Assembly: GCA_944324155.1 (NCBI GenBank)
Contig: CALUVF010000051.1
Location: forward strand, 1 to 32,224
Direction: 5' to 3'
Origin: an uncultured Erysipelotrichaceae bacterium
Lineage (GTDB): Bacteria; Bacillota_I; Bacilli_A; Erysipelotrichales; Erysipelotrichaceae
Length of the DNA stretch: 32,224 nucleotides
Position 1 is the first letter of the stretch, and the number at the start of each line of letters is the position of its first letter. Shown one piece after another: positions 3,019 through 31,551 of the stretch. The notes below the pieces were generated by a model. It made no database searches. It was given only the letters and a program-made list of their open reading frames with translations, and was not told where the DNA came from. Made by a program: the position numbers and the translations under genes.

Positions 3019-3047
3019 TTACTTTTCCTTGTGGTTTGTGTTAGAAT
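3019..3047 (+). promoter_or_regulatory. Promoter of the MATE gene, leaderless type
   Basis: TTACTT (3019-3024), a 17-base spacer and TAGAAT (3042-3047). The ATG at 3057 begins 9 bases after the -10 box, so the predicted transcript has 0-3 untranslated bases. No Shine-Dalgarno site fits. Confidence 0.6.
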
Positions 3048-3056
3048 CGTTCAGGT

Positions 3057-4409
3057 ATGAGTAGAACTAGTGATAAGATGGCCACCTGGCCAATAGGTAA
3101 ATTATTATTTTCAATGGGGCTTCCAGCGGTCTTTTCGATGCTGATCCAAGCCCTTTACAACATCGTCGATACCATCTACATCTCGCAGTATTCGCAAGAT
3201 GCCATGTTTGCGATCGGGCTTGTATATCCCATGCAGATGGTCGGGCTTTCCCTAGCTTTAGGGACCGGCGTTGGTATCGGCACACTCGTTTCGCGTCGTT
3301 TGGGTGAAAAGAGAAAGGAAGACGCTGGAAGAGTGGCGACAACCGGGATCATTCTGGCACTTATCCATGTGGTGATCATTTTCCTTTTAGGTATCTTTGC
3401 CTCTAAACCGTTTTTAGGTTTATATACGGATCGTGCTGAGATCGTTGAGCTGGGTTTTGAATATTTGAGTATCGTCATGTGCTTCAACTTTGGACAGATG
3501 CTTTCGGTCTGCTTTGAAAGGATCTTACAGGCTCAGGGCAATATGATCGCTCCGATGATCTCTTTGATCGTCGGTGCTGTCACCAATATCGTTTTAGATC
3601 CGATCTTGATCTTTGGCTATCTCGGCTTCCCTGAAATGGGCATGGCGGGGGCAGCGATCGCAACGGTTGCCGGTCAGATCTTAGGCATGATCGTCGTGGC
3701 GGTCATTGCCTTTAAGGGTGATCATGAAGTTAAATTCCACTTAAAAGGTTTTAAGATGGAAGCTGATAACGTCAAAAAGATCTATGCCGTAGGTCTTCCG
3801 ACTGCCATTATGAACATGATTTCTTCAGTTACGACGACCTTAATGAATGGGGTACTAGTCAAATATTCTGAAAATGCCGTCACAAGCTTAAGCATTTACT
3901 TCAAGCTGCAATCCTTCGTCTTTATGCCGGTCTTTGGCTTTAACCAAGGTGCTTTACCGATCTTGTCTTATAACTATGGGGCCCAGGATAAGGACCGTTA
4001 CTTTAAGACAGCTAAGCTATATATGTTTACAGCTTTGGGCTTTATGATCGTTGGAACGATCTTGTTTAGATTTGCGCCCGATCTCATGTTGTCGTTTTTC
4101 GCAATGGACAACAGCTTGAAGGTGATTGCTGAAGTGACCTTAAAAACGATCGCCTTATCCTTTATCCCAGCTGCTGTCTCGATCGTCTTTTCGACCATTA
4201 TGCAATCCTTTGGCAAGGGTACAATGTCAATGATCCAATCTATCTTAAGACAGCTGGGGATCTTGATACCCTGCGCTTATCTTTTATCAGCGCTGGGTGG
4301 TCTTGATGTGGTCTGGTATGCTTATCCGATTGCCGAAATATTGGTCGTTTTGATCTTTATTCCTTTGGTCATCAAGATCTACCGCAATGGCTTTATGGGG
4401 GTCGAATAG
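3057..4409 (+). CDS. MATE family multidrug/cation antiporter
   Basis: A 450-residue inner-membrane exporter of the multi-antimicrobial extrusion family. These proteins exchange Na+ or H+ for cationic drugs or metabolites. The N-terminal signature is clear (PIGKLLFSMGLPAVFSML...ALYNIVDTIYI), there are about 12 hydrophobic segments in two pseudo-symmetric halves, and the second half carries QSFVFMPVFGFNQGALPILSYNYGA, typical of the family. Length is as usual (about 450). There is no ribosome binding site, because the -10 box ends only 9 bases before ATG; the start is nonetheless well supported because the family N terminus begins here. A 34-codon ORF starts at the base after its stop codon. The substrate cannot be inferred. 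Confidence 0.93.
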   Translation: MSRTSDKMATWPIGKLLFSMGLPAVFSMLIQALYNIVDTIYISQYSQDAMFAIGLVYPMQMVGLSLALGTGVGIGTLVSRRLGEKRKEDAGRVATTGIILALIHVVIIFLLGIFASKPFLGLYTDRAEIVELGFEYLSIVMCFNFGQMLSVCFERILQAQGNMIAPMISLIVGAVTNIVLDPILIFGYLGFPEMGMAGAAIATVAGQILGMIVVAVIAFKGDHEVKFHLKGFKMEADNVKKIYAVGLPTAIMNMISSVTTTLMNGVLVKYSENAVTSLSIYFKLQSFVFMPVFGFNQGALPILSYNYGAQDKDRYFKTAKLYMFTALGFMIVGTILFRFAPDLMLSFFAMDNSLKVIAEVTLKTIALSFIPAAVSIVFSTIMQSFGKGTMSMIQSILRQLGILIPCAYLLSALGGLDVVWYAYPIAEILVVLIFIPLVIKIYRNGFMGVE

Positions 4410-4514
4410 ATGAGAGATCTAGATACGATCATTAAAGAGATCAAAGATTTAGAAGATGAATACGAAGATAAATTAGAGGCTTTTTTAAAGGAATTAGACA
4501 ATACACAAAACTGA
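4410..4514 (+). CDS. Candidate 34-aa acidic small protein coupled to the MATE gene
   Basis: The ATG follows the MATE stop codon directly (TAGATG), and a GGGGG run 8 bases upstream (4397-4401) could serve as ribosome binding site. The product, starting MRDLDTIIKEIKDLEDEY and ending NTQN, is very rich in Asp, Glu and Lys with heptad-spaced Ile/Leu, as in a short amphipathic or coiled-coil helix. It has no membrane segment. Translational coupling to MATE is plausible. Function is unknown. It is too short to exclude chance, although the junction and composition argue for a real gene. Confidence 0.45.
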   Translation: MRDLDTIIKEIKDLEDEYEDKLEAFLKELDNTQN

Positions 4515-4534
4515 TCCTGATATAATTTTCACAA

Positions 4535-4563
4535 TTGACTATAAGACCTTAAAAACCTATAAT
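4535..4563 (+). promoter_or_regulatory. Strong promoter of gap
   Basis: TTGACT (4535-4540), a 17-base spacer and a perfect TATAAT (4558-4563). AAAAGGAGG (4577-4585) follows in the leader, 13 bases before the ATG at 4599. This is a conventional leader, unlike the neighbouring MATE gene. Confidence 0.85.
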
Positions 4564-4598
4564 ATAGGTAAGTCATAAAAGGAGGAAATTATTAGATT

Positions 4599-5612
4599 AT
4601 GACAGTTAAAGTTGCAATTAACGGATTCGGTCGTATCGGACGTCTTGCCTTCAGACAGATGTTTGCTGATCCAAATTATGAAGTAGTAGCTATCAACGAT
4701 TTGACAGCTCCTAAGATGCTTGCTCATCTTTTGAAGTATGATTCTTGCCAAAAGAAGTATGATCATGAAATTTCAGCCGGTGAAGAATCAATCACAGTTG
4801 ATGGCAAAGAGATTCATATTTACAAGGAACCAGATGCTTCTAAATTACCTTGGGGCGAAATCGGTGTTGATGTCGTCTTAGAGTGCACCGGTTTCTATAC
4901 AAAGAAAGAAAAAGCTCAAGCTCACATCACAGCTGGTGCTAAGAGAGTCGTTATTTCTGCTCCTGCTGGAAACGACGTTCCAACTATTGTTTACGGCGTT
5001 AACGAAAACACTCTAAAGGCTGAAGATACTATCATCTCAGCTGCTAGCTGCACAACTAACTGCTTAGCTCCAATGGCCAAAGCATTAAATGACTATGCTC
5101 CAATCCAATCTGGTATCATGACAACTGTTCATGCTTATACTGGTGACCAAATGGTTCTAGATGGACCTCATCGTAAGGGTGATTTAAGAAGAGCTCGTGC
5201 AGCTGCTGTCAACATCGTTCCAAACTCTACTGGTGCTGCTAAGGCTATCGGTTTAGTTATCCCAGAATTAGCTGGTAAGTTAATCGGTTCAGCTCAACGT
5301 GTTCCTGTTCCTACAGGTTCTACTACGATCCTTGTAGCTGTCGTTAAGAGCGATAAGGAAGTTACTCCTGAATCAATCAACGAATACATGAAGAGCGTTG
5401 CCAGCGATTCTTACGGATACAACGATGAACCAATCGTTTCTAGCGACATCATCGGCGAAACTCATGGTTCAATCTTTGATGCAACTCAAACCATGGTAAC
5501 TAAGGTCGATGAAGGCGTTTACCAAGTTCAAGTTGTTGCATGGTATGATAACGAAAATTCTTACACAACTCAAATGGTAAGAACAATCAAATACTTCAAC
5601 AGCTTAAGCTAA
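4599..5612 (+). CDS. gap: Glyceraldehyde-3-phosphate dehydrogenase (NAD-type)
   Basis: A 337-residue cytosolic glycolytic enzyme that oxidises and phosphorylates glyceraldehyde 3-phosphate to 1,3-bisphosphoglycerate. The Rossmann motif INGFGRIGR is at residues 8-16 and the acidic residue in INDL (32-35) suits NAD binding. The active site is [12 protein letters not shown] with catalytic Cys151, and the C-terminal WYDNENSYT is conserved. Length is normal. Codon choice is more biased than in flanking genes (many GCT, GTT and CAA codons), fitting high expression together with the near-consensus promoter. It stands alone between a promoter and a terminator, without pgk or tpiA beside it. Confidence 0.98.
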
Positions 5613-5636
5613 GACCTAATCTAAATAATTTGCACG

Positions 5637-5663
5637 AAAAAGACGCTTGATGCGTCTTTTTTT
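5637..5663 (+). terminator. Rho-independent terminator after gap
   Basis: AAAAAGACGC (5637-5646), loop TTGAT, GCGTCTTTTT (5652-5661) with a continuing T run. The T run is followed at once by the -35 box of the next gene. Confidence 0.92.
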
Positions 5664-5690
5664 AACATTTGAGGCGAAATTTTATATAAT
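5662..5690 (+). promoter_or_regulatory. Promoter of the XRE-RCC1 gene, leaderless type
   Basis: TTAACA (5662-5667), 17 bases, perfect TATAAT (5685-5690). The ATG at 5700 starts 9 bases later, so the expected untranslated leader is about 0-3 bases. The -35 box overlaps the end of the gap terminator. Confidence 0.7.
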
Positions 5691-5699
5691 AATAGGCGT

Positions 5700-7460
5700 A
5701 TGAACACTTTACCAACGAAATTATTAGCACTGCGCAAGCAGTACGGTTACTCGCAAAGCTATGTAGCAGAGTATTTAAAAATGGAAGTTATTGAGTACAT
5801 GGGCTATGAAAATGGCCGCAGCGTACCATCTTTTGCGAACCTTAAAAAATTGGCCAAATTATATAAGGTCAAGGTCGATGATCTGTTTGTCAATGAAAGG
5901 CGTATCAATTACTGGCAAGAGGAAGAAAAGAATAACGATACCCAAAACATCACCTACTTAGAGAAGCAGACCAAAAAGACCAAACGCAAGGCTTATTTAA
6001 AGACAAACCAAAAGGTCTTGATCGGGATCTGTGTCTCGCTTGCCCTCATTGCGATCATCGCAGTAGTGATCTGGCGCTTTGTTGCATCGAATAATGAGAT
6101 CTATGCCAAAAGGATCGAAAGTAATGCCAATCGCTTAGATGCCTCTAATACAAGCGTTGTCTATATCAACGCAATGGGCGGTGTAAATGGCTTAGGTGAT
6201 AACCTCAACGGGCAGTTAGACCTAAATTTCAGTGATGTCTTCAAGGTCCAAGAGGGCTCTAACTTTACGGTCGCACTTAAAAACGACGGTACATTAGAGG
6301 CAGCCGGATTAGATTCATCTTTGATGAAAGAATTAGAAAAGCTTGAAGGGATCGTCGATATAGCTGCTGGCAATTCTGAGATCATGGCTTTAGATGAGCA
6401 CGGCAAGATCCATTGTATCGGAACTGATGACTACTGTGATTTTAAGAGCGATAAGCGCTATACCCGGGTCTTTGCGACCTATGATGCCTATTTTGCCCTT
6501 GATACTGACGGGGTACTGTATTACGATGGAGAATTTGCCGGAGCCTCGCGCTTAGATGGTGTCAAAGATGTCAAAGATGTCGCAGCCAATCAGAATATGC
6601 TGGCTTACGTCACAAGTGATGGCCGGGTCTTTGCCCAAAGTACAAGCGGGACGTTAGGCGATGTCTCATCTTGGAACAACATCGTCGAGATCGCGATCGG
6701 CCTTAACTATATCGCTGGTTTAGACGCTAATGGCCAGGTGTATTTCGCCTCGCTTGAAGAAGATGCCTATAATTTCCACGCCGAGACCTTCAGCAAGGTC
6801 GAAACGATCGATGGTGGGGAAGATTACTTTGTTGCCTATGATGGTATGAAGGTCATCGGGATCGGCAATGATGAATATAAACAGTTTGAAAATGTCGAGA
6901 TTGAGCTAAAGACCCTTGACAGCGTCGAGAATATCAGCGTCGAGGTAAATGCCGAAAAGATGGTCCTTGAGATCAGCTTTGACGAGGTCGCCAACGCACA
7001 AAGCTACGAGATGACCTTTAATGAAGAGACTTATACTTCGACGACCAATCTCTTTGAGGTCAGCTATGCCAATTTACAAGATGGCTATGACTATAAGATC
7101 GACATCATCGCTAAAGGTGATGCAAAAGAGTACAACGATTCTTTATCGACCACCTTTATCTATACTTTTGAATATCCGATCCTAGAAGATAAGATCATCT
7201 TATCAGGAATGGTTGGCATGGACAGGGAGAATCTTGAGCGCTATTTGACAGAAAACGGTGCCACTAGCGCTAATATCAGCGCTGAAGCCGATAGTGGTTG
7301 TGATCCCGCCACTCAAAAAGAAGGTCAGGTTACAGCTGTCAGCGGATTAAATGATGGTGAAGAGATCACCCGCAAGGATCTCGCTGAAAGAAAGATCACT
7401 TATAAGTATTGTGTATTCGAAGATGCAGGAGAAGACAATAATGAAGATATGGCAGATTAA
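5700..7460 (+). CDS. Membrane-anchored XRE-type regulator with extracellular RCC1-like propeller
   Basis: A 586-residue protein of mixed build. Residues 6-63 are an XRE/Cro helix-turn-helix (LLALRKQYGYSQSYVAEYL, then YENGRSVPSFANLKKLAKLY). A basic stretch (91-105) precedes one membrane helix (about 106-126), which puts the HTH in the cytoplasm and the rest outside. Residues 150-395 hold about six RCC1-like blades (GLGDNLNGQL, NFTVALKNDGTLEAAG, NMLAYVTSDGRVFA). Residues about 410-490 look like an Fn3 fold and 498-575 like a PASTA unit with two cysteines (534, 571). The build suggests a one-component regulator that senses something in the envelope, which is an inference. Its ligand and DNA targets are unknown. 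The 3' end overlaps a 59-codon gene. Confidence 0.82.
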   Translation: MNTLPTKLLALRKQYGYSQSYVAEYLKMEVIEYMGYENGRSVPSFANLKKLAKLYKVKVDDLFVNERRINYWQEEEKNNDTQNITYLEKQTKKTKRKAYLKTNQKVLIGICVSLALIAIIAVVIWRFVASNNEIYAKRIESNANRLDASNTSVVYINAMGGVNGLGDNLNGQLDLNFSDVFKVQEGSNFTVALKNDGTLEAAGLDSSLMKELEKLEGIVDIAAGNSEIMALDEHGKIHCIGTDDYCDFKSDKRYTRVFATYDAYFALDTDGVLYYDGEFAGASRLDGVKDVKDVAANQNMLAYVTSDGRVFAQSTSGTLGDVSSWNNIVEIAIGLNYIAGLDANGQVYFASLEEDAYNFHAETFSKVETIDGGEDYFVAYDGMKVIGIGNDEYKQFENVEIELKTLDSVENISVEVNAEKMVLEISFDEVANAQSYEMTFNEETYTSTTNLFEVSYANLQDGYDYKIDIIAKGDAKEYNDSLSTTFIYTFEYPILEDKIILSGMVGMDRENLERYLTENGATSANISAEADSGCDPATQKEGQVTAVSGLNDGEEITRKDLAERKITYKYCVFEDAGEDNNEDMAD

Positions 7461-7620
7461 GAATCGTCCCAAGACTTTAATACTCAGTGATGAAGAATTG
7501 ATTATAGCGATCAAAAAAGGTTTGCTTAAGGGTGAAGATGTCTTGATTAGTACGGAACTTGAAGAAGAAGTTGCGATCAAAGACACGGTCTATGAGATCT
7601 ATCTGAGAAAGCAAGATTAA
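7441..7620 (+). CDS. 59-aa conserved-looking small protein, overlapping the XRE-RCC1 gene
   Basis: The ATG at 7441 is chosen because AGGAG (7427-7431) lies 9 bases before it; a longer frame from 7351 has no site. It overlaps the end of the preceding gene by 20 bases, so the two are probably co-translated. The product begins MKIWQIKNRPKTLILSDEEL, continues with IAIKKGLLKGEDVL and ends DTVYEIYLRKQD. This pattern (Trp near the start, a DEEL helix, a G-L/V-L turn, then a beta strand) resembles the small GYF_2-like domains sometimes attached to membrane regulators. That resemblance is weak. No membrane segment is seen. It may be a cytoplasmic partner of the regulator. Confidence 0.6.
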   Translation: MKIWQIKNRPKTLILSDEELIIAIKKGLLKGEDVLISTELEEEVAIKDTVYEIYLRKQD

Positions 7621-7638
7621 AAGAAAGAGAGTTGTTTT

Positions 7639-8967: not shown

Positions 8968-9329
8968 TGAGGGCTAAAGATCTAAGTGGAGCGGATCTTA
9001 GTTATTTAGGTGATGCCGTCTTTACGCTTTTAGTTAAAGAAAGACTTTTAGAAAAAGGTCTTAGAAAGATTAAAGACTTGCAGAAGGACTCGATCTCTTT
9101 TGTGAGTGCTAAAGGGCAAGCGGGGATCATCGAAGATCTTTTGAAACGCGATTATTTTAGCCAAGAGGAGCTTGAATACTATCGCAAGGGGCGCAACTCC
9201 ATCACCCATATCCCGCGTAATTCTGACCTTCAGACTTACGCCAGTGCCAGCGGTTTTGAGTCCCTAGTGGCCTATTTATATTTAGAAGATAAAAAACGCT
9301 TAAAAGCGTTGATGGACGAGATATTATGA
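8967..9329 (+). CDS. mrnC: Mini-ribonuclease III (23S rRNA maturation)
   Basis: A 120-residue RNase III catalytic domain without a dsRNA-binding domain; the family trims 23S rRNA precursor ends. LSYLGDAVF carries the catalytic acidic residue, FVSAKGQA and YYRKGRNS are family motifs, and SGFESLVAYLYLE matches the second acidic cluster (ATGFEALIGYLYL in relatives). The ATG at 8967 shares its A with the cysS TGA; a TTG one codon earlier (8964) is the alternative. The end overlaps rlmB by ATGA. Confidence 0.93.
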   Translation: MRAKDLSGADLSYLGDAVFTLLVKERLLEKGLRKIKDLQKDSISFVSAKGQAGIIEDLLKRDYFSQEELEYYRKGRNSITHIPRNSDLQTYASASGFESLVAYLYLEDKKRLKALMDEIL

Positions 9330-10093: not shown

Positions 10094-10099
10094 GATAAT
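10094..10099 (+). promoter_or_regulatory. -10 element of the sigma-factor gene, leaderless type
   Basis: GATAAT (10094-10099) lies 6 bases before the ATG at 10106. No clear -35 is visible; TTAAGA at 10073 is a weak candidate with a short spacer. The 15 bases from here to the start codon, ATAATAAAGGCATGG, are identical to those before the Nudix gene. Confidence 0.5.
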
Positions 10100-10105
10100 A
10101 AAGGC

Positions 10106-10681
10106 ATGGAAAAAGAACTCTTAGAAGAAATCAAAAGTGGAAAAGATGAAGCTTTCAAGGAATTTATCGAATTATATCGTCCCATGATCCTAAGCATTAT
10201 CAAAAGGATCGCCCAGTTTTATGGCAGTGATTTTAAGATCGATCACAGTGATCTTTTACAAGAAGGGCTGATCGCCTTGTATGATGCAGCCATGTCTTAT
10301 CGCGATGATGGCAAGGCGAAGTTTTCAACTTATGCCTATACCATTATTTATCGCCGCTTGAGCAAGTACTACCACAGCCAAATAGCGATCTACACCCACG
10401 AAGGACATTCTTTAGATCATGAGCGCTACGAAAATAAGGAGATCATGCCAAGCGAGCGCTACTATGATAACCCGGCTCAGATGTTCCTTTTAAAACAGAC
10501 CCTCGACTTTGCGTCAAACTTTTATAAAGGTCTCACGCCCTTAGAAAAGAAGATCTTAGAACTGCATGATCAAAAGTATTCCTATAAAAGAATTGCAGAA
10601 CTTTTGGGGATCAAAGAAAAAAGAGTCGACTACCTTTTAAGCAAGATCAAAACGCGTTATAAATCGCGTCTTGACATTTAA
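10106..10681 (+). CDS. RNA polymerase sigma factor, sigma-70 family, SigH-like
   Basis: A 191-residue alternative sigma factor. Region 2 holds DLLQEGLIALYDAAMSYRDD followed by KFSTYAYTIIYRRL (core binding and -10 recognition). Region 4 is LTPLEKKILELHDQKYSYKRIAELLGI, a helix-turn-helix for -35 recognition. Start chosen at MEKELL: upstream codons of the longer open frame read as pyrimidine-rich non-coding DNA, and a -10 box lies 6 bases before this ATG. Position between rlmB and rpmG-secE-nusG is exactly that of sigH in Bacillus. The regulon (competence or stationary phase in relatives) cannot be told here. Its last codons contain the -35 box of the rpmG operon. Confidence 0.88.
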   Translation: MEKELLEEIKSGKDEAFKEFIELYRPMILSIIKRIAQFYGSDFKIDHSDLLQEGLIALYDAAMSYRDDGKAKFSTYAYTIIYRRLSKYYHSQIAIYTHEGHSLDHERYENKEIMPSERYYDNPAQMFLLKQTLDFASNFYKGLTPLEKKILELHDQKYSYKRIAELLGIKEKRVDYLLSKIKTRYKSRLDI

Positions 10682-10698: not shown

Positions 10699-10705
10699 TT
10701 AGATG

Positions 10706-16322: not shown

Positions 16323-16328
16323 TAAGAT
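16323..16328 (+). promoter_or_regulatory. -10 element of the PfkB-kinase gene, leaderless type
   Basis: TAAGAT (16323-16328) lies 6 bases before the ATG at 16335. The matching -35 would fall in the ruvB terminator and is not recognisable, so the call rests on the -10 and on its spacing. Confidence 0.4.
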
Positions 16329-16334
16329 AAGACT

Positions 16335-17228
16335 ATGTACTACACTTTGACTTTTAATCCCAGCTTGGATCATTATGTATGGTTTAAGACCGCGCTTTTA
16401 GAAGGTGCGATCTTACGCCCTTTTCAAAGTGCGCTCAAGGTTGGGGGCAAGGGCTTAAATATCAATCAAAACTTCGCGAAACTAAAGATCCCTTCAAAAT
16501 CTTTCGTGTTTTTAGCGGGCGATGTCGGTCAGATGATCTATAATAAGATCTCAAAAATTCCTATGATCGAGACCGAAGCTTTTTGGATCAAAGGTGAATC
16601 ACGAATCAACACAAAGATCCTCGGCGAGAAAGAGACAGCAATCAATGAGCCCGGACCCTTGATTGATGAAGGTGCGAAAAGAGAACTTTTAAAGAGCTTA
16701 AAAAAACTTGATGTCAATGATTTTCTCATTATTGCGGGCAGCTTGGCATTTAATGTTGACCTTAATTATCTTTTAGAAATAAAAAGTACCTGCAAGGCTA
16801 AACTGGTCTTAGATATCCCTAATCTAAGTTTTTTGGATCTTTCGAGATTGAAACCAGATCTCATCAAACCCAATCTAGAAGAATTAGGGGCTATTTTTGA
16901 AGAAGAAGTGTCCATAGATAATTATCGTTGTTATACAAGAAAATTGATCACAGCAGGAGTAAAAAGCGTTCTTTTATCACTTGGCGAAATGGGCTCGTAC
17001 TTTGAGTCAGACAAAGAAGCGATATGGGCTAAAGGCCCCAAGGTAAAGGTCGTCTCAACAGTGGGTTGTGGCGATACACTTCTATCTTATTTTTTAGCCT
17101 TTTCACCAAAAGGGACTAAGAAAGGCCTGATCATGGCAGAGGCAGCAGGGAGGACAAAGGTCCAAAGTGTCGATCTAGTCGAATTGGAAGATGTTTTGAG
17201 AATGAGCGAAAGAATTGAACTGTTTTAA
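16335..17228 (+). CDS. PfkB family sugar kinase, 1-phosphofructokinase-like
   Basis: A 297-residue ribokinase-fold kinase of the FruK/LacC branch, expected to phosphorylate a sugar phosphate. MYYTLTFNPSLDHYV is the typical N terminus of 1-phosphofructokinase and tagatose-6-phosphate kinase. GGKGLNINQNFAKL (37-50) forms the substrate site, KPNLEEL is conserved, and the ATP-site signature reads VGCGDTLLS with catalytic Asp247; the usual residue before Gly246 is Ala or Ala/Ser, here Cys245. No PTS fructose transporter or fruR is beside it, so fructose-1-phosphate as substrate is an inference. It is not preceded by a ribosome site. Confidence 0.8.
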   Translation: MYYTLTFNPSLDHYVWFKTALLEGAILRPFQSALKVGGKGLNINQNFAKLKIPSKSFVFLAGDVGQMIYNKISKIPMIETEAFWIKGESRINTKILGEKETAINEPGPLIDEGAKRELLKSLKKLDVNDFLIIAGSLAFNVDLNYLLEIKSTCKAKLVLDIPNLSFLDLSRLKPDLIKPNLEELGAIFEEEVSIDNYRCYTRKLITAGVKSVLLSLGEMGSYFESDKEAIWAKGPKVKVVSTVGCGDTLLSYFLAFSPKGTKKGLIMAEAAGRTKVQSVDLVELEDVLRMSERIELF

Positions 17229-17261: not shown

Positions 17262-17267
17262 TATAGT
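17262..17267 (+). promoter_or_regulatory. -10 element of the flavodoxin-like gene, leaderless type
   Basis: TATAGT (17262-17267) lies 6 bases before the ATG at 17274. TTTACA at 17236-17241 is a possible -35, but the spacer is 20. Confidence 0.4.
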
Positions 17268-17273
17268 ATAGGT

Positions 17274-17813
17274 ATGACAGGGGTTATCATTTATTCCAGT
17301 GTTTATGGCACTGGCAAGACTTATGCTTATAGATTGAGGTCTTTATCTAAATTCGATCTTTTTTCTTATGACGAAATAAAAGATCTCGATCACTATGATA
17401 CCATCATCTATATCGGCTCTATCTATGCAGGTATCGTCAAAGGGATGAGGGGTGTTTTTAAAAGGATCGATCCACAAGATAAGAAGCTCATTTTGATCAC
17501 AATAGGAATTGTTGATCCTATGAACAAAGAGAATCAAGACAATATCAAAAACAATATAAAGGCATTGGTTTCAAATGCTGTTTATTCAAAATTAAAGATC
17601 TATCATTTAAAAGGAGCCATTGATTACCAAAAACTTTCCCTAAAACATCGCTTCCTCATGTATCTTATCTATAAAAAAGCCAGCAAGAGTGACCCGAATA
17701 AACAAAGTTCTGAAGAAAAAGCGATCCTTGAGACCTATAAAAAAACGCTCTCCTTTGTTGATTTTGATGAATTGAAAAAGATATGGGAAGAAATATATGC
17801 AGATATTAACTGA
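17274..17813 (+). CDS. Flavodoxin-domain protein (HemG/flavodoxin_5-like)
   Basis: A 179-residue protein with a flavodoxin fold. The FMN phosphate loop is YSSVYGTGKTYA (7-18). YDTIIYIGSIYAGIVKGMRGV resembles the second FMN loop of the protoporphyrinogen-oxidase-like flavodoxin_5 group (GSAIYAG in relatives), and DPQDKKLILITIGI follows. The usual role is electron transfer from FMN. No haem genes are nearby, so haem synthesis is not implied. The 3' end overlaps the next gene by 17 bases. Confidence 0.75.
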   Translation: MTGVIIYSSVYGTGKTYAYRLRSLSKFDLFSYDEIKDLDHYDTIIYIGSIYAGIVKGMRGVFKRIDPQDKKLILITIGIVDPMNKENQDNIKNNIKALVSNAVYSKLKIYHLKGAIDYQKLSLKHRFLMYLIYKKASKSDPNKQSSEEKAILETYKKTLSFVDFDELKKIWEEIYADIN

Positions 17814-18323: not shown

Positions 18324-18397
18324 TGGAGCAGGTGATGAGAATCGAACTCACGTAGTCAGCTTGGAAGGCTGAAGTTCTACCATTGAACTACACCTGC
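18324..18397 (-). tRNA. tRNA-Gly (anticodon TCC)
   Basis: Minus strand. Acceptor arms GCAGGTG/CACCTGC, anticodon loop CTTCCAA, T loop GTTCGATTC and encoded CCA. 74 bases. Last gene of the six-tRNA cluster. Confidence 0.96.
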
Positions 18398-18412
18398 AAG
18401 TTAAATAATGAG

Positions 18413-18488
18413 TGGTGTCCCGGAAAGGAATCGAACCTTCGACCCTCTGATTAAAAGTCAGATGCTCTACCGCCTGAGCTACCGGGAC
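18413..18488 (-). tRNA. tRNA-Lys (anticodon TTT)
   Basis: Minus strand. Acceptor GTCCCGG/CCGGGAC, anticodon loop CTTTTAA, CCA encoded, 76 bases. 15 bases separate it from tRNA-Gly. Confidence 0.96.
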
Positions 18489-18492
18489 AGCA

Positions 18493-18568
18493 TGGCTGGG
18501 ATGGCTGGGTTCGAACCAGCGAAATGACGGAGTCAAAGTCCGTTGCCTTACCACTTGGCTACATCCCA
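18493..18568 (-). tRNA. tRNA-Gln (anticodon TTG)
   Basis: Minus strand. Acceptor TGGGATG/CATCCCA, anticodon stem-loop CGGACTTTGACTCCG, CCA encoded, 76 bases. The U1-A72 start of the acceptor is typical of bacterial tRNA-Gln. Confidence 0.95.
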
Positions 18569-18573
18569 AAAAG

Positions 18574-18658
18574 TGGTGGAGAGGGGCAGATTCGAACTGC
18601 CGAACCCGTAGGGAGCTGATTTACAGTCAGCCGCGTTTAGCCACTTCGCTACCTCTCC
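18574..18658 (-). tRNA. tRNA-Tyr (anticodon GTA)
   Basis: Minus strand. Acceptor GGAGAGG/CCTCTCC, anticodon loop CTGTAAA, long variable arm as expected for a class II tRNA, CCA encoded, 85 bases. Confidence 0.96.
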
Positions 18659-18666
18659 AAAAAGAA

Positions 18667-18742
18667 TGGTGCCGACTATAGGACTTGAACCCACAACCTA
18701 CTGATTACAAATCAGTTGCTCTACCAATTGAGCTAAGTCGGC
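18667..18742 (-). tRNA. tRNA-Thr (anticodon TGT)
   Basis: Minus strand. Acceptor GCCGACT/AGTCGGC, anticodon loop TTTGTAA, CCA encoded, 76 bases. Only three bases separate it from tRNA-Val. Confidence 0.96.
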
Positions 18743-18745
18743 ACA

Positions 18746-18821
18746 TGGTGGAGGTTAACGGGCTCGAACCGCTGACCCTCTGCTTGTAAGGCAGATGCTC
18801 TCCCAACTGAGCTAAACCTCC
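18746..18821 (-). tRNA. tRNA-Val (anticodon TAC)
   Basis: Minus strand. Acceptor GGAGGTT/AACCTCC, anticodon loop CTTACAA, CCA encoded, 76 bases. First gene of the cluster after the promoter. Confidence 0.96.
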
Positions 18822-18959: not shown

Positions 18960-19859
18960 ATGAACTATGCTATTGCGATCGATATCGGCGGCTCTAATAC
19001 CCGGGTAGCGCTCGTTAGTGAAAACTATGAGATCATCAAGCGGGAGCAATTTAAAACTGATATCAATAGCCCCGAAAAGACGATCCAAGAGATCAAAAGA
19101 ATAATCGAGAACTTTAACACTAAAGCCCAGGGCATCGGCTTGTCTTGTCCGGGGCCACTAGATCTTTTAAACGGAGCGATTCTTGTGACCACTAATCTCA
19201 ATGAGCCCTGGTATAATTACCCAATTTCCAAAGCCTTAAAAGAAGCGACCGGCCTTGAGGTCTATCTTGAAAACGATGCGAATCTGGCAACTTTGGCCGA
19301 AAGCGTCATCGGACAGGGCAAAGATTATCGCTATGTCCAGTTTTTAACGGTCTCAACAGGTTTGGGATCAGGACTTGTCATTGACAAAAAGATCTATATC
19401 GGGGCCCATGGCTTTGCCCATGAGATCGCGCACCTTCCTGTATGGCGCAATGGTCCATCGCACGGCATGATCAAGCCCGGTGGGATCGAGGCGATCAGCT
19501 CTGGTACGGCAATCGAAGAAAGGGCGCGCAAGGCGGGACTTGATGTCAAACACGCTGGCGAAGTCAATGACTTAGCTTTAAAGGGCAATGCGATTGCCAT
19601 GGAAATCATGGAAGACGCCAAAGAATACTTAGCCAATACGATCGCCATCATTTATTCCTTCATCGATCCTGAGATCGTAATTTTAGGAGGAAGCGTCGCC
19701 CTTAAGATCGAAGGTTTTGTTGAAGATGTCGAAAGAAGAGTCAAGACCAAGGTCTTTGATCCTTTGATTCCTTATGTCAAAGTCGTTAAAACGGATCTGA
19801 ATGAAGATAGCGGACTTTTAGGAGGAGCATGTCTTGTCTTCTTTAAAGAAAGCAAATAA
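18960..19859 (+). CDS. ROK family sugar kinase (glucokinase-like)
   Basis: A 299-residue sugar kinase of the ROK family. The phosphate-binding motif AIDIGGSNTRVALV is N-terminal, LSCPGPLD (61-68) and ENDANLATLAE (104-114) hold the catalytic Asp, and GTGLGSGLV follows. E155 and H158 of EIAHLPV bind sugar in relatives. The zinc loop, normally CxCGxxGCxE, reads GPSHGMIKPGGIEAISSG with no cysteine. No helix-turn-helix is present, so it is a kinase and not a ROK repressor. It precedes and overlaps a small membrane-protein gene. Glucose is the likely substrate but not proven. Confidence 0.88.
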   Translation: MNYAIAIDIGGSNTRVALVSENYEIIKREQFKTDINSPEKTIQEIKRIIENFNTKAQGIGLSCPGPLDLLNGAILVTTNLNEPWYNYPISKALKEATGLEVYLENDANLATLAESVIGQGKDYRYVQFLTVSTGLGSGLVIDKKIYIGAHGFAHEIAHLPVWRNGPSHGMIKPGGIEAISSGTAIEERARKAGLDVKHAGEVNDLALKGNAIAMEIMEDAKEYLANTIAIIYSFIDPEIVILGGSVALKIEGFVEDVERRVKTKVFDPLIPYVKVVKTDLNEDSGLLGGACLVFFKESK

Positions 19860-22037: not shown

Positions 22038-22061
22038 TGAAATTAACTTTTCGACTATAAT
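22031..22061 (+). promoter_or_regulatory. Promoter of the Nudix gene, leaderless type
   Basis: TTGACA (22031-22036), 19 bases, TATAAT (22056-22061). The ATG at 22068 starts 6 bases later, so the first A of the start codon is the likely first base of the mRNA. Confidence 0.6.
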
Positions 22062-22067
22062 AAAGGC

Positions 22068-22466
22068 ATGGCTAAAGAAATCGTTTTAACCGTCATGGGC
22101 GCTCTTGTTAAAGGTGACAGCTTACTAGTCCAAAACAGAACTAAGACAGATTGGCCCGGGCTCACGCTTGCCGGCGGGAAGGTCGAAGATAAAGAAAGCA
22201 TAAAGGAAGCGATTAAGCGCGAATTCTTGGAAGAGACTGGTCTAGAAGTAAAGGATTGGCACTTTGAAAACTATATCGAGTGGAATATTAAAGGTCAGCG
22301 CCATCTGTGCCTGCTTTTTAAGGCTTTTGAATTTAAGGGCACACTAATACAAGCAACAAGCGAAGGCGCTAATCTTTGGCTAAAGATCAAAGAAATTAAA
22401 GATGCGGGTAATTTTTCGGATGATTTTGATAAGATCTTGGATCTTTTAAAGATAGATTGGAGATAG
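22068..22466 (+). CDS. Nudix hydrolase, MutT/MutX-like
   Basis: A 132-residue hydrolase of nucleoside diphosphate-linked compounds. The Nudix box at 37-59 fits GX5EX7REUXEEXGU exactly (Gly37, Glu43, Arg51-Glu52, Glu55-Glu56, Gly58). LTVMGALVKGDSLLVQNR and DWPGLTLAGGKV before it match the 8-oxo-dGTPase-type MutT/MutX group. Oxidised nucleotides are a plausible substrate. It is the first gene of a plus-strand set with cyclophilin and YitT, and is divergent from htpG. No ribosome site is possible because the -10 box is too near. Confidence 0.88.
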   Translation: MAKEIVLTVMGALVKGDSLLVQNRTKTDWPGLTLAGGKVEDKESIKEAIKREFLEETGLEVKDWHFENYIEWNIKGQRHLCLLFKAFEFKGTLIQATSEGANLWLKIKEIKDAGNFSDDFDKILDLLKIDWR

Positions 22467-23777: not shown

Positions 23778-23783
23778 TAGAAT
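23778..23783 (+). promoter_or_regulatory. -10 element of degV, leaderless type
   Basis: TAGAAT (23778-23783) ends 7 bases before the ATG at 23791. No convincing -35. No Shine-Dalgarno site lies before this ATG; GTGAG at 23773 is an in-frame GTG upstream and not a ribosome site for it. Confidence 0.45.
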
Positions 23784-23790
23784 AGAATAT

Positions 23791-24633
23791 ATGAAAAAAG
23801 TAGCAATCTTAACTGATTCGGGTTGTGATATCGATGAAAAAACAGCCCGGGAATTAGGTATCTATGTCTTGAGAATGCCGATCATGATCGGCTCTAAAGA
23901 ATATACGGAGGGCATTGACCTCGATCTAGAGGGCTTAAAAGAAGAATTAGCTAAGGGCCAGATGGCCAAGACGGCCCAAGCCTCGCCGGGTTCTTTGATC
24001 AAGATCTACAATAAGCTCTTAGAAGAATATGACGAGATTTTGCATATTCCTTTATCGAGCGGGCTAAGTGGCATGTATCAGACTTCTTTGATGCAGGCTA
24101 AGACTTTCGGCAACAGGATCGCTGTAGTCGATGCTAAGTGTGTCTGCTACCCCCTTACCAAGCTCTGCCTCGATGCCAAGAAGTTATTAGAGACAGGGAA
24201 GAGCGCTTTTGAAGTTAAAGATATTATTGAAAATAGCGGCAATATTTTGGAGGCTATCATCATACCCCGCGATATAACCTATTTAAAAAACGGCGGGAGA
24301 ATCTCAAGTGCTGCGGCAGCTTTGGCCAATCTTTTAAAGATCGTCCCGGTCTTAAGCGTTTCAGAAGGCAAGATCGACGTGTATGACAAGGTACGCACGG
24401 AAAAAAGAGCCTTAAAGGTTGGCTTTGATGCGATCACAAAGGTCACGAACTATGAAGACTACTATTGGATGATCATTGAAGATGAATGCGATGATCTAAG
24501 AGATGAGATGAAAAAGAAACTTGAAGAAAAGACCCATCAAGAGGTTGAACTGCATGACTTTGGGGCAGTTATCTTATCTCATACCGGTCCAGGGGTCTTC
24601 GGCTTTGGTCATGTCAAAAAGCTCAAGGCATGA
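23791..24633 (+). CDS. DegV family fatty-acid-binding protein
   Basis: A 280-residue protein of the DegV/FakB family, which binds fatty acids and presents them to the kinase FakA for phospholipid synthesis. ILTDSGCDIDEKTARELGI is the family N terminus, and TAQASPGSL, HIPLSSGLSGMYQTS and YLKNGGRISSAAAALANLL form the ligand pocket. Start at MKKVAIL because the signature begins there; a GTG at 23773 would add six unconserved residues and the -10 box lies between. ATGA overlap with the next gene. Confidence 0.93.
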   Translation: MKKVAILTDSGCDIDEKTARELGIYVLRMPIMIGSKEYTEGIDLDLEGLKEELAKGQMAKTAQASPGSLIKIYNKLLEEYDEILHIPLSSGLSGMYQTSLMQAKTFGNRIAVVDAKCVCYPLTKLCLDAKKLLETGKSAFEVKDIIENSGNILEAIIIPRDITYLKNGGRISSAAAALANLLKIVPVLSVSEGKIDVYDKVRTEKRALKVGFDAITKVTNYEDYYWMIIEDECDDLRDEMKKKLEEKTHQEVELHDFGAVILSHTGPGVFGFGHVKKLKA

Positions 24634-25262: not shown

Positions 25263-25276
25263 TGAAAATTTTTTCG

Positions 25277-25314: not shown

Positions 25315-25328
25315 TTTAATGTCAAGCC

Positions 25329-25357: not shown

Positions 25358-25383
25358 CAAAGCATAGATAGGAGCTAAATATC

Positions 25384-25473: not shown

Positions 25474-25496
25474 GTGCGTTTGAGCATTCATTTTTT
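25471..25496 (+). terminator. Terminator-like hairpin, possible attenuator of the ankyrin operon
   Basis: TGAGTGC (25471-25477) and GCATTCA (25484-25490, one G-T pair) with loop GTTTGA, then TTTTTT. It overlaps the stop codon of the 29-codon ORF and precedes AGGAGG (25507-25512) of the ankyrin gene. Confidence 0.65.
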
Positions 25497-25521
25497 ATTG
25501 TTTGACAGGAGGTAAAAGATT

Positions 25522-26193
25522 ATGGATCAAACAGTCAACAAAGAATTTTTTGACGCCTGTGCCAGCGGTGATTATGCCAAGGTAGCGGCGACGATCGCCA
25601 AGGGCGCCGATGTCAACATGGTCAACGGCGACGGCCGCAGCGGATTGATGCGGGCTGCCAAAAGAGGTTATGAAGATATTGTCCGGATCTTATTAGATAA
25701 TGGCGCCAGCACCAGGGCCCGTGACAAAAACAATAAGACGGCTTTAATGGGAGCAGCTAAAAAAGGCTATCTCAATATCTGCAAGATGTTATATGAAGCA
25801 GGAGCTGATGTTAATTCGCATGACAACAACGGCCGCACTGCCTTGATGCGCGCTGCTTTTTTAGGCAATCTCGATGTCGTTGAATTCTTAGTGGAAAAAG
25901 GCGCTGTCATCGATGCCCAGGATAATCGCGGGCGTACAGCCCTCATGGAAGCGGTCTTGGCCTTTAAGGTTGACTGTATCCACTATTTGATCAATGCCGG
26001 AGCTGATATCAATAAACAAGACAACAACGGTTGCACAGCCCTGATGAGAGCTAGCTATGGCGGCTATACCGATCTTGTCATCTTCCTTTTGAATAAGGGC
26101 GCGGATAAGGAGGTTGTCGATAATAATGGCAACAAAGCGATCCACTATGTCCGCACAGAATGTTTAGATGAATTAAAGAACCATTTGAAATAG
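25522..26193 (+). CDS. Ankyrin-repeat protein
   Basis: A 223-residue protein made almost wholly of ankyrin repeats, about six, each 33 residues. The core is (D)NNGRTALMRAA, with variants GDGRSGLMRAA, KNNKTALMGAA and NRGRTALMEAV; the last repeat is truncated (NGNKAIHYV). There is no signal peptide or membrane helix, so it is a cytosolic protein-protein interaction scaffold. Ribosome site AGGAGG is 9 bases before the ATG. It lies 14 bases before an EF-G-like gene. Binding partner unknown; the GTPase next door is the obvious candidate. Confidence 0.92.
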   Translation: MDQTVNKEFFDACASGDYAKVAATIAKGADVNMVNGDGRSGLMRAAKRGYEDIVRILLDNGASTRARDKNNKTALMGAAKKGYLNICKMLYEAGADVNSHDNNGRTALMRAAFLGNLDVVEFLVEKGAVIDAQDNRGRTALMEAVLAFKVDCIHYLINAGADINKQDNNGCTALMRASYGGYTDLVIFLLNKGADKEVVDNNGNKAIHYVRTECLDELKNHLK

Positions 26194-26207
26194 GGAGATA
26201 AGATCAT

Positions 26208-28280: not shown

Positions 28281-28286
28281 AAAAAG

Positions 28287-28317
28287 AAGAGCTGTCTCAT
28301 TTGTCAGGACAGCTCTT
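28287..28317. terminator. Bidirectional terminator between EF-G-like gene and TrxR-like gene
   Basis: AAGAGCTGTC (28287-28296) and GACAGCTCTT (28308-28317), 11-base loop. Flanked by TTTA on the plus side and, on the minus strand, by a T-rich run (28281-28286). Both flanking genes converge on it. Confidence 0.9.
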
Positions 28318-28328
28318 TTACTTAGATG

Positions 28329-29189
28329 CTAATTTCTTTTAATGAAGGCGATGGCACTATTAGCAGCCATAGCGCCATCATAGACCGCCTTGGCAACTTG
28401 TTTCATGCCGCTAATTAGATCACCGGCGGCAAAAAGTCCGGGGATATTGGTTTCTAGTCCCGCGTTTACTTCGATCTCATTTTTGTCAGTTACGACAACT
28501 CCTAATTTGCGCGCAAGATCTAAGGATCCGGCGATCCCTTCGGCCACAAAAAGTCCATCTAATGGAAGTTCTTGCCCGTCTTTAAATCGGACTCCTTGGA
28601 TCTTGTCTTCTCCATATAACATATCGATCTCTTTATCATAGATCTCAAAACTTTCAAGATGAGCGTCCTTTAAGGGTCGGTTGTTGGTTAAGATATAGAC
28701 TTCCTTAGCGAGATTTTTTAAATATTCCGCCTCATGGAGGGCATAGCTTCCATCACCCAAGACTGCTACGACCTTCCCTTTATAGAAAAAGCCGTCGCAG
28801 GTTGCACAATAAGAAAGACCTCTTCCTTCGTATTCCTTATAGTTTTTGATCTTGGGGACATTGCGTTTAGCGCCGCTAGCCAAGATCAAAGATTTGGCGA
28901 AGTGCTCGCCTTTGGTCGTCACGACCTTGAAATCTTCATCCCAGTTTATGTCGATGACCTCTTCTTCGTATAAGGCGATATCGAAATCTTGACATTGTCT
29001 AAGGCCTTTTTCAAAGAGTTCAGAGCCCTTGATGTGGGCTAGCCCATAATAGTTATCGATCATATGGGCGGTATTTAAAGCTGTATCTTTTAGATATATA
29101 ATGCCGGTATCGATATTTGCTCTTTTGGCGTATAAGGCAGCGCTCACCCCGGCCGGTCCGGCGCCGATAATCAAAAGTTCATGTCTCAT
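28329..29189 (-). CDS. Thioredoxin reductase-like flavoprotein with an atypical NADPH site
   Basis: A 286-residue FAD-dependent disulfide oxidoreductase. The FAD motif is GAGPAG (9-14), the redox pair is Cys128-Cys131 (YCATCD), and GLFAAGD (251-257) closes the FAD site. The NADPH motif (normally GGGDSA with HRR-x-x-x-R) reads LGDGSYALHEA, and TNNRPLKDAH replaces the HRR stretch. The protein is about 25 residues shorter than usual TrxB. It may use another electron donor, an inference. It lies 58 bases after the P-type ATPase on the same strand. GGAG is upstream of the ATG, and a TATAAT (29215-29210) may give it its own promoter. Confidence 0.85.
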   Translation of the reverse strand: MRHELLIIGAGPAGVSAALYAKRANIDTGIIYLKDTALNTAHMIDNYYGLAHIKGSELFEKGLRQCQDFDIALYEEEVIDINWDEDFKVVTTKGEHFAKSLILASGAKRNVPKIKNYKEYEGRGLSYCATCDGFFYKGKVVAVLGDGSYALHEAEYLKNLAKEVYILTNNRPLKDAHLESFEIYDKEIDMLYGEDKIQGVRFKDGQELPLDGLFVAEGIAGSLDLARKLGVVVTDKNEIEVNAGLETNIPGLFAAGDLISGMKQVAKAVYDGAMAANSAIAFIKRN

Positions 29190-29247
29190 ATGTTTTCTCC
29201 TTGTCTATTATTATAATTCTTTTTAATTTTAAATACGCTTTTAAAGC

Positions 29248-31539
29248 TCAGTATTTTTCATCGATCCGGGAGATCAGATGTTTTATGATCTTTAGACGAT
29301 CAAGCCTATACATAATAAATACCCCGGCACTTGATAGTATAAAGGCCAAGATGATCTCATTAAGTGTGAGCGCTTCAAGATAGAAGATCTCCCTAAAAAA
29401 TATAAAAGACAAGAAAAGGCCTAAAAAGGCGAAAGATAAAATCAAGATCCTGAAGAGATTTAAAGGCTTGCTGATGCGAGCGACATTGACATACATGATT
29501 AAAGCGCTGATTAAGGTCGCCATCGTATTGACATGTTCCGCTTTGACCATATTGAGCTTAATGAGTACTTCTAAAATCAAAACAGCTAAGATGATACTTA
29601 AAGCACAAGGCAAGGCTTTCTTAAGGACGCTTGATAAAAAGCCGCCTTTTACTAGATCATAATTGTGTTCAAAGGACAAAAAGAAGGCCGGCATGCCGAT
29701 CAAAAGAGAGGACAAAAGGGTGAGTTGGATCGGAGCGAAGGGGAATTCTGTTAAGACCACGATGGCTAAAAGGGCCAAGATGATCGATAAAAGCGTCTTG
29801 GTCAAAAAGAGCGTTGCTGTCCTTTGAATATTGTTTATAACGCGTCGCCCTTCTTTGATGATGGCGATCATGTGATTAAAGTCATTGTCGAGCAAGACGA
29901 CATTGGCGATGTTTTTGGCACTTTCCATGGCACTGCCCAAGGCGATCGAAAAGTCCGCTTCCTTTAAGGCCATGACATCATTGACCCCATCACCAACCAT
30001 GCCGATAGTATGGCCGCTCTTTTTTAAAGCTTCGATCAGCCAGATCTTTTGATCGGGATTGACACGTGCGAAAATCGCATAATCTAAAGCCTTGTCCTTA
30101 AGTTCATCTTCCTTAAGCCCCAGGCAATTAAGGCTTTTGTCATAGGATCTAAAGCCAGCACTTTGGGCGATGCTTCGGATCGTCGTTTCATCATCGCCCG
30201 AGATGATCTTAAGATCGACGCCCTGATCTAAAAAGTAGGCCAAGGTCTTTTTGACATTAGGCCTTAGTTCATCTTTGATGATCAATAAAGCGACGAGCTT
30301 TTTATTGATCGATAGCCCTATGACGCGGTTTCCCATTTCGGCATAATGATCGATCCGAGCCTTTTGAAAAGAGCTGATTTTATCACATATAAATTGACAG
30401 GCCCCGATCAGATAAAGGTCCTTATTATATCCTGCTCCTGAATGTTTATCGCGCGAAGAAAAGTGGATCAATCGATCTAAGTGTATCTTTTTTTGCGGTT
30501 TGAAATAATTTTGAAGCGCTTCGCCGGTCGCATTTTGATCATTCAATTCATGCACGATATTAGCAAAGACATCTTCATTAAACTCTTCAAACTTTTCCAT
30601 TTTCAAGACTTCCATTTTGCCGCTTGTCAAAGTCCCAGTTTTATCAAGACACAAGACATCGACCCTGGCCAAAGTCTCTAGGGAATAGAGTTCTTGAACT
30701 AGCGTGTTTTTAAAAGAAAGATTTAAGGCCCCAACACTTAAGGCGATCGAAGTGAGTAAAACAAGTCCTTCGGGGATCATGCCGACCATTGAAGCGACAC
30801 TTTGAAGCAAGGCATCGTCAAGGTCAAGACCCGAAATGAGGTACTGTTTTAAAAACAAAAGGATACCTAAGGGCAAGATGATGATCGCCACCATCTTGAC
30901 AATAAAGTCTAGGGCATCGCGCAGCCTAGAGGGCTGTCTTTTGGCGCGCTTTACCTTTTTGGCAATGTGGGAAATGTAGTTATCTTGGCCAACGGCTACG
31001 ACTTTACATAGAGCCTCGCCCTTTGTAATGATGCTTCCAGCATAGATCTTATCACCCTTCTGTTTATAGATCTCATCGCTTTCCCCTGTCAGCATGGCCT
31101 CTAAAACCAAGACCTCACCATTTAAAACGATGACATCGCTTAAAACTTCCTGGCCGATGCCAAGCCTTAATAGATCGTCAAGCACAATTTTATCCCCAGT
31201 GATCTTCGCCTCTTGGCCATCTCTTATGATGGTGGCATGTGGGGCATTTAAAAGGCGCAGTTTATTGAGCTTATGATAAGAGCGGATCTCTTGAAAGATC
31301 CCAATGACCGTATTGGTGATGACGACACCCATAAAAAGCATATTGCGAAAATGTCCGCTCAAAACTACCAGTAAAGCCAAGAAGAGATTCAGGGCATTAA
31401 AAAGGTTGAAGACATTTGAAAAGATGATCATGGCAGGTGTCTTGATCGTTTCATCTTCCAACACGTTGACCTGACCTTTTTTGATCCTTTCTAGAACATC
31501 TAAAGAGCTAAGTCCCTTTGTTAGATAGTCGTCTTTCAT
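29248..31539 (-). CDS. P-type cation-transporting ATPase, CtpE/Exp7-like
   Basis: A 763-residue P-type pump with about ten membrane segments. TGES (151-154) is the actuator motif. VGMIPEGLVLL (membrane helix 4, PEGL at 256-259) marks the transport site. The phosphorylated DKTGT is at 299-303 (Asp299), and MVGDGVNDVMALKEADFSIA is the hinge motif. PEGL and the overall build resemble the CtpE/Exp7 group, linked to calcium in mycobacteria; the ion is not fixed here. A -10 box (TATAAT, 31551-31546) ends 6 bases before its ATG, so it should be leaderless. The TrxR-like gene follows on the same strand. Confidence 0.92.
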   Translation of the reverse strand: MKDDYLTKGLSSLDVLERIKKGQVNVLEDETIKTPAMIIFSNVFNLFNALNLFLALLVVLSGHFRNMLFMGVVITNTVIGIFQEIRSYHKLNKLRLLNAPHATIIRDGQEAKITGDKIVLDDLLRLGIGQEVLSDVIVLNGEVLVLEAMLTGESDEIYKQKGDKIYAGSIITKGEALCKVVAVGQDNYISHIAKKVKRAKRQPSRLRDALDFIVKMVAIIILPLGILLFLKQYLISGLDLDDALLQSVASMVGMIPEGLVLLTSIALSVGALNLSFKNTLVQELYSLETLARVDVLCLDKTGTLTSGKMEVLKMEKFEEFNEDVFANIVHELNDQNATGEALQNYFKPQKKIHLDRLIHFSSRDKHSGAGYNKDLYLIGACQFICDKISSFQKARIDHYAEMGNRVIGLSINKKLVALLIIKDELRPNVKKTLAYFLDQGVDLKIISGDDETTIRSIAQSAGFRSYDKSLNCLGLKEDELKDKALDYAIFARVNPDQKIWLIEALKKSGHTIGMVGDGVNDVMALKEADFSIALGSAMESAKNIANVVLLDNDFNHMIAIIKEGRRVINNIQRTATLFLTKTLLSIILALLAIVVLTEFPFAPIQLTLLSSLLIGMPAFFLSFEHNYDLVKGGFLSSVLKKALPCALSIILAVLILEVLIKLNMVKAEHVNTMATLISALIMYVNVARISKPLNLFRILILSFAFLGLFLSFIFFREIFYLEALTLNEIILAFILSSAGVFIMYRLDRLKIIKHLISRIDEKY

Positions 31540-31545
31540 ATCAAT

Positions 31546-31551
31546 ATTATA
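31546..31551 (-). promoter_or_regulatory. -10 element of the P-type ATPase gene, leaderless type
   Basis: Minus-strand TATAAT, 6 bases (ATTGAT) before the ATG at 31539. No strong -35 is visible. Confidence 0.45.

Follow-up and report, generated by a model that had tools for sequence, protein, structure and literature searches.

Eight genes on the 32,224-nucleotide contig CALUVF010000051.1 of an uncultured Erysipelotrichaceae bacterium (assembly GCA_944324155.1, positions 1 to 32,224; contig C51, hereafter the window), together with a wider class of genes in the same genome, are very probably transcribed as leaderless mRNAs, as judged from their promoter layout. This reading is favored because the exact spacing between the -10 box and the start codon, the pyrimidine preceding the ATG, the missing Shine-Dalgarno site and the conservation of the layout among orthologues all point to it, the transcription start being placed from the promoter spacing. 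The class is leaderless mRNA of a known kind, in a family for which no report of leaderless genes was found in the titles and abstracts of the open-licence literature searched.

Promoter spacing across the genome

Among the 80 best matches listed for the gap protein, the top named relative was an unclassified Firmicutes MAG (90%); the others in the first four were mostly MAGs of Erysipelotrichaceae and 'Solobacterium sp.' (81-83%), and Clostridia were interspersed lower in the list. The host most likely belongs to Erysipelotrichaceae, the family of Solobacterium. The genome measures 1.31 Mb in 153 contigs, of which 386,609 bases (the window and further stretches) were sampled; a home-made caller supplied the genes. 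Genes truncated at the 5' end or having fewer than 80 bases upstream were left out of the counts, and those with fewer than 30 bases upstream out of the spacing profiles. The profiles used a strict box (TATAAT with at most one mismatch) and a background taken as the mean per position at 20-69 bases. Boxes ending 5, 6, 7, 8 and 9 bases before the start codon were found for 1, 21, 6, 3 and 3 of 163 genes, respectively, at a background of 3.0 per position. The initial annotation had suggested testing whether -10 boxes are in excess at 6-9 bases across all genes; run on the whole sample, this test gave an excess at 6 and partly at 7, and none at 8-9. The position at spacing 6 was depleted in the Clostridia control (675 genes from 70 named, mostly Clostridia loci), with 2 boxes at a background of 16.2. 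In the whole genome, the pattern TATAAT-N5-Y-ATG (spacing 6) had 49 matches, compared with 3 for the reversed pattern and 16 for the spacing-10 control TATAAT-N9-Y-ATG.

Chance matches in AT-rich intergenic DNA are hardly credible as the source of these boxes. TATAAT-like words are indeed common, as the background of the profile indicates, and a fixed rule (TATAAT with at most one mismatch at 6-9 bases before the start, or TANNNT with two mismatches at 6-7) was passed by 581 of 14,058 other ATGs of the own-genome sample (any frame, both strands). Against this stand the concentration of 21 genes at a single position, the near absence of such boxes from the Clostridia control and the 49 matches against 3 of the reversed pattern. 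The fixed rule was passed by 29 of the 146 genes in the rest of the own sample and by 23 of the 675 control genes, so that the fixed-rule controls contradict AT-richness as do the spacing profile and the reversed-pattern and spacing-10 controls. If the Clostridia rate is taken as chance, some 31 of the 37 genes that qualify among the 163 would be real, which puts the putative leaderless class at about one in five promoter-proximal genes and about one in ten of the 329 sampled genes.

Marks of a transcription start on the start codon

In promoters of the sigma-70 type, transcription starts some seven bases beyond the -10 box, at a purine preceded by a pyrimidine. The base before the ATG was C or T in all 21 spacing-6 genes of the genome compared with 62% of 128 other promoter-proximal genes, in 36 of 36 compared with 64% of 229 others when four genomes of the genus were pooled, and in 28 of 29 spacing-6 genes outside the genus (G010, G019, G026, G031, G033 and close named loci). 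A Shine-Dalgarno match, defined as four or more bases, preceded only one of the 21 spacing-6 genes as against 90 of the 128 other promoter-proximal genes. The aligned promoters (n = 52) were of the extended -10 type, with T at -17 in 73%, G at -14 in 44% and a weak -35 element. Among the 38 leaderless genes retained for sequence features (boxes at 6-8, any Shine-Dalgarno status, at least 15 bases upstream), 37 started with ATG and one with GTG; the other genes also started nearly always with ATG, a codon that the caller favors.

An unlikely alternative is that the promoters are real but most expression comes from led mRNAs, made from upstream promoters or by operon read-through, with the leaderless form being minor or conditional. 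About half of the leaderless set has a codirectional gene upstream (the upstream gene is divergent in 19 of 38), but with a Shine-Dalgarno match in one spacing-6 gene of 21, led transcripts would be poorly equipped for translation.

Two general changes of the ribosome were considered. For a loss of the anti-Shine-Dalgarno, a strict pattern for the 16S rRNA end was without a match in 7 of 10 genomes, but the end is normal in G003 and the gaps were read as assembly gaps; a looser pattern matched in one of the nine genus genomes (G003, reading GGATCACCTCCTTT) and in neither the other eight nor the own assembly. Led genes with a Shine-Dalgarno site are common in the own genome. A loss of ribosomal protein S1 was not supported, S1 domains being present in all ten genomes searched, although the domain is a broad one.

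The eight genes of the window and their neighbors

The eight genes of the window are as follows, the distance being the number of bases between the -10 box and the ATG.

3042..4409, plus strand: MATE transporter (TIGR00797 match, 1e-65); -10 TAGAAT at 3042-3047, ATG at 3057, distance 9
5685..7460, plus strand: helix-turn-helix (HTH) protein with RCC1-like repeats (XRE-RCC1); -10 TATAAT at 5685-5690 (distance 9) and overlapping AATAAT at 5688-5693 (distance 6), ATG at 5700
10094..10681, plus strand: sigma-70 family factor; -10 GATAAT at 10094-10099, ATG at 10106, distance 6
16323..17228, plus strand: PfkB-family kinase; -10 TAAGAT at 16323-16328 (two mismatches to TATAAT), ATG at 16335, distance 6
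17262..17813, plus strand: flavodoxin-like protein (a name from the initial annotation; no NCBIfam match); -10 TATAGT at 17262-17267, ATG at 17274, distance 6
22056..22466, plus strand: Nudix hydrolase; -10 TATAAT at 22056-22061, ATG at 22068, distance 6
23778..24633, plus strand: DegV family protein; -10 TAGAAT at 23778-23783, ATG at 23791, distance 7
29248..31551, minus strand: P-type ATPase; -10 TATAAT at 31551-31546, ATG at 31539, distance 6

All eight hexamers were found where the initial annotation had placed them, 6-9 bases before the ATG: five at 6, that of degV at 7, that of the MATE gene at 9 and that of the XRE-RCC1 gene at 9 or 6. The mRNA of the MATE gene would thus have a leader of about three bases, not zero. 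Longer open reading frames with TTG or GTG starts exist for the sigma factor (from 10022) and degV (from 23773); the ATG was used here. Among the 17 window genes with at least 30 bases upstream, the fixed rule was passed by exactly these eight (binomial P = 3e-8 against the Clostridia rate and 1.5e-7 against the rate of other ATGs). The window also exceeded the rest of the own sample (Fisher P = 0.027), as expected, since it was chosen for this feature.

The ordinary leaders ascribed to neighboring genes were likewise recovered, with AGGAGG-like sequences at gap, rplU, htpG, the ankyrin gene and the gene at 18960. A layout for comparison is that of gap, whose upstream region is similar in six of six close named loci:

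4558..5612, plus strand: gap, led contrast gene; TATAAT about 35 bases before the ATG at 4599, AAGGAGG leader

Several other features of the window were recorded. The XRE-RCC1 protein (5700-7460, 586 aa) joins an HTH domain to RCC1-like repeats, an unusual pairing for a bacterial regulator, and has a relative in L052. The ankyrin-repeat protein (25522-26193) has an ordinary AGGAGG leader. A ribosomal protein L21 leader (RF00559; 11712-11785) precedes the led gene rplU. Six tRNA genes (Gly, Lys, Gln, Tyr, Thr, Val) are clustered on the minus strand at 18324-18821, and a 16S rRNA gene (31812-32224) is cut by the contig end after the first 400 model positions, a usual assembly break point.

Conservation among orthologues

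Reciprocal best hits between the own genome and the other sampled genomes gave 107 pairs. Within the genus and the close named loci, a leaderless partner was found for 11 of 14 leaderless genes compared with one of 42 Shine-Dalgarno-led genes. For seven of the eight window genes, one or more relatives had a leaderless-like partner. The partner box stood at 6 for the P-type ATPase in G008 (50% identity), for the PfkB kinase (62%), flavodoxin-like protein (56%) and Nudix hydrolase (67%) in G005, and for XRE-RCC1 (42%) and the sigma factor (41%) in L052; for degV it stood at 8 in G005 (84%), and the MATE gene had no partner among the sampled genomes. Upstream regions of PfkB homologues were inspected at ten loci; among these, the genus homologues had boxes at 6 in G005 and G001, at 7 in G002 and at 8 in G008. 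Outside the window, a divergent pair encoding a YceD-like protein and a HIGH nucleotidyltransferase (L147:1030-2675) has 44 bases between the two ATGs, each with a -10 box six bases off, and the same divergent leaderless-like layout recurs in the G005 counterpart (L153).

These alignments also bear on the possibility that the start codons are misplaced, in which case translation would begin further downstream, at a codon served by a separate ribosome-binding site, on transcripts with ordinary leaders. In genus pairs leaderless on both sides the alignments start at residue 1 in both proteins, and the profile matches of rsmE, fmt, ybeY, rnc and ligA reach back almost to residue 1. Of the 38 leaderless candidates, 3 have another in-frame start within 90 bases downstream that carries a good Shine-Dalgarno site, and two of these (L033:2197 and L038:3973) look like true misplacements; led genes show much the same proportion (5 of 90), and genes with neither signal a higher one (6 of 36). 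The fixed spacing and the pyrimidine, moreover, require the ATG itself to matter. Misplaced starts are thus ruled out as a general cause by the orthologue alignments, the rarity of downstream starts and the profile matches, and as an account of the class they are very improbable.

Distribution in the family and beyond

At the gene level, spacing-6 boxes preceded 8 of 62 genes in G005 and 7 of 39 in G008, both of the same genus, and 6 of 43 genes in named close relatives. Elsewhere in the family they were found for 7 of 28 genes in G010, 6 of 38 in G026, 4 of 43 in G033, 3 of 45 in G031, 3 of 44 in G019, 1 of 20 in G017 and 1 of 43 in G034, for 1 of 46 in other named Erysipelotrichaceae-type loci, and for none in G014 (46 genes), G015 (35), G018 (61), G020 (44), G025 (12), G029 (21) and G032 (40). 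The stretches of G024, which read as N, were excluded. In three genomes of a sister family none of 86 genes had such a box.

Whole-genome counts at spacings 6 and 10 covered 195 genomes of the family, two all-zero ones being excluded (G024 and G086, with zero counts, were excluded from the genus table). Spacing 6 outnumbered spacing 10 in all nine genomes of the window genus, with totals of 533 and 154. Among the 58 scorable genera of the family, the ratio was at least 2 with P < 0.001 in 14 and at most 1.2 in 26. Genome size correlated only weakly with the genus-level ratio (Spearman -0.22, P = 0.099) and with the excess per Mb (-0.30, P = 0.021), and genome compaction is not claimed as a driver. 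A scan of the class (296 genomes, reversed-pattern control only) gave further spacing-6 excesses in other families; in families f8 and f16 the excess was strong in several genomes of 0.7-1.4 Mb, the counts at spacing 6 and for the reversed pattern being, for example, 54 and 8 in G457, 26 and 1 in G341, and 18 and 0 in G337.

Functions of leaderless and led genes

Functions were compared between 38 leaderless candidates (boxes at 6-9, Shine-Dalgarno match below four bases; a set slightly different from the sequence-feature set of equal size) and 40 genes drawn at random from the 90 led promoter-proximal genes. Transcription regulators accounted for 4 of the 38 leaderless candidates and 4 of the 40 led genes, with one antitoxin in addition on each side, and transporters for 4 of 38 (plus one PTS subunit) and 6 of 40; the starts of the leaderless antitoxin and PTS subunit are probably misplaced. 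The initial annotation had described the leaderless set as mostly regulators, transporters and small enzymes, but neither regulators nor transporters were commoner than among led genes in the own sample beyond the window. Its statement that housekeeping and ribosomal genes keep their leaders held for the few seen (L10, L21, gap and htpG) and failed for ligA, rnc, murE, fmt, ybeY and mnmE, all leaderless candidates. The main members of the two sets, beyond the window, were:

Leaderless candidates: mnmE, an RsmE-family methyltransferase, a SpoU-type methylase, a TtcA-like enzyme, rnc, fmt and ybeY
Further leaderless candidates: a HIGH nucleotidyltransferase, YceD, ligA, murE, DtxR-type and RpiR-type regulators, HAD hydrolases and others, and an FtsA-like protein whose match is below its curated cut-off
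Led genes (40 drawn): L10, L21, two tRNA synthetases, RuvA, HSP90, HSP33, transporters, a sigma factor, AraC, a response regulator, MraZ and others

RNA modification and maturation was represented by 9 of the 38 leaderless candidates and none of the 40 led genes (one if a PhoH-like protein is included), in a category picked after viewing the list. In the spacing-6 genes of six other genomes the same category reached 3 of 33 (a CCA-type polymerase, RlmA and SpoU), the 33 being what remains of 39 genes once 6 orthologues of own leaderless genes are removed; profile scans covered 10 of the 39, and the rest were judged by eye from their N-termini. These genes also include dnaE, gmk, ispD, ispH and ruvA. 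The RNA-maturation lean of the leaderless set remains only a lead. Among its members, fmt (L143:1963-2907), which formylates the initiator Met-tRNA, is a leaderless candidate with a box at 7.

It appears improbable that the leaderless genes are a regulatory division under separate control, switched for instance by the ratio of initiation factors or by stress. Such a division would fit the gene-by-gene retention of the layout, the RNA-related candidates and the published enrichment of RNA processing and transcription among leaderless genes (PMC3160421). Regulators and transporters are not enriched, and the RNA category reaches only 3 of 33 in the six other genomes, so that the split suggested by the initial annotation finds no support beyond the window. 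The leaderless layout appears to be a genus habit, mostly for ordinary enzymes, and not a regulon. Expression level was also rejected as the divide, codon adaptation of leaderless and led genes not differing significantly (P = 0.097; reference of only 1,349 codons). Divergent gaps were shorter before leaderless genes (median 76, n = 20) than otherwise (median 147, n = 30), for which the missing leader by itself would suffice.

Proposed mechanism and known leaderless systems

In the proposed mechanism, the promoter is of the housekeeping type with an extended -10 (relative to the A of ATG, T at -17, G at -14 and TATAAT at -12 to -7). Six bases separate it from the start codon, which would bring the transcription start onto the A of ATG. 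RNA polymerase would start on this A, after the pyrimidine, and the mRNA would begin with 5'-AUG, leaving no space for a Shine-Dalgarno site. With a box at 7-9, 1-4 bases would remain untranslated. Leaderless mRNAs elsewhere are translated through direct recognition of the 5'-AUG (70S or IF2-dependent), and ribosomes carrying the initiator tRNA may recognize the 5'-AUG directly here as well.

Several observations weigh against this account of the class or limit its reach. The gene starts come from a home-made caller, and at least two of the 38 candidates, those named above, probably have misplaced starts. As no genome-wide excess was found at spacings 8-9, the support for the MATE gene is its own box. 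One genome of the genus, G001, had no spacing-6 box in 26 genes at the gene level, although its whole-genome counts were nevertheless 64 at spacing 6 and 13 at spacing 10. In the wider family only two of five leaderless genes had a leaderless partner (compared with 1 of 22 led genes). The PfkB partner in G033 lacks a box, and in G004 a PfkB homologue is preceded by a Shine-Dalgarno leader.

Leaderless genes had been called uncommon in Bacillota, which is true in part. Zheng et al. (2011) predicted them for 56 of the 209 Firmicutes genomes, at a mean of 4.2% and chiefly in Lactobacillales and Mycoplasma, with translation depleted among their functional categories (PMC3160421); the text available names no Erysipelotrichales, and a term search of it for 'erysipel' gave no hit. 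The Lactobacillales and Mycoplasma predictions share with the present genes a TA-rich -10 box directly before the start codon. In Streptococcus agalactiae and S. pyogenes, 8-9% of mRNAs are leaderless by differential RNA sequencing (dRNA-seq), 90% of those of S. agalactiae begin at the A, and 81% of the leaderless S. pyogenes mRNAs have this form in S. agalactiae too (PMC4448216, PMC6431027). Like the class described here, the streptococcal one belongs to Bacillota, forms a minority beside Shine-Dalgarno-led genes and uses AUG starts; its 8-9% of mRNAs is a measured value, whereas the figure of roughly a fifth of promoter-proximal genes in this Erysipelotrichaceae genome is deduced from promoters. 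The mean proportions in Actinobacteria (19.2% of genes) and Deinococcus-Thermus (39.4%; PMC3160421), where the spacing of the -10 box likewise sets the transcription start on the start codon, compare with roughly 10% of genes here. Leaderless transcription is predicted in 21.6% of bacterial species, as cited in PMC9581028, and Erysipelotrichia is listed for its anti-Shine-Dalgarno in PMC10783764.

Leaderless initiation may differ genus by genus within one family and be fixed gene by gene where present, with a possible lean towards enzymes of RNA maturation and tRNA/rRNA modification; one of these, fmt, produces the formyl-Met initiator tRNA needed for 5'-AUG recognition. As a speculation of low probability, these genes could constitute a translation-level feedback set, responding together to the supply of initiator tRNA or initiation factors.

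Start prediction can err in this genome: a coding-score caller at first placed the MATE start 81 bases too late. The genes described here would add a Bacillota family with a sizeable leaderless class, and its related genera with and without that class would offer a natural comparison for why leaderless genes stay or vanish.

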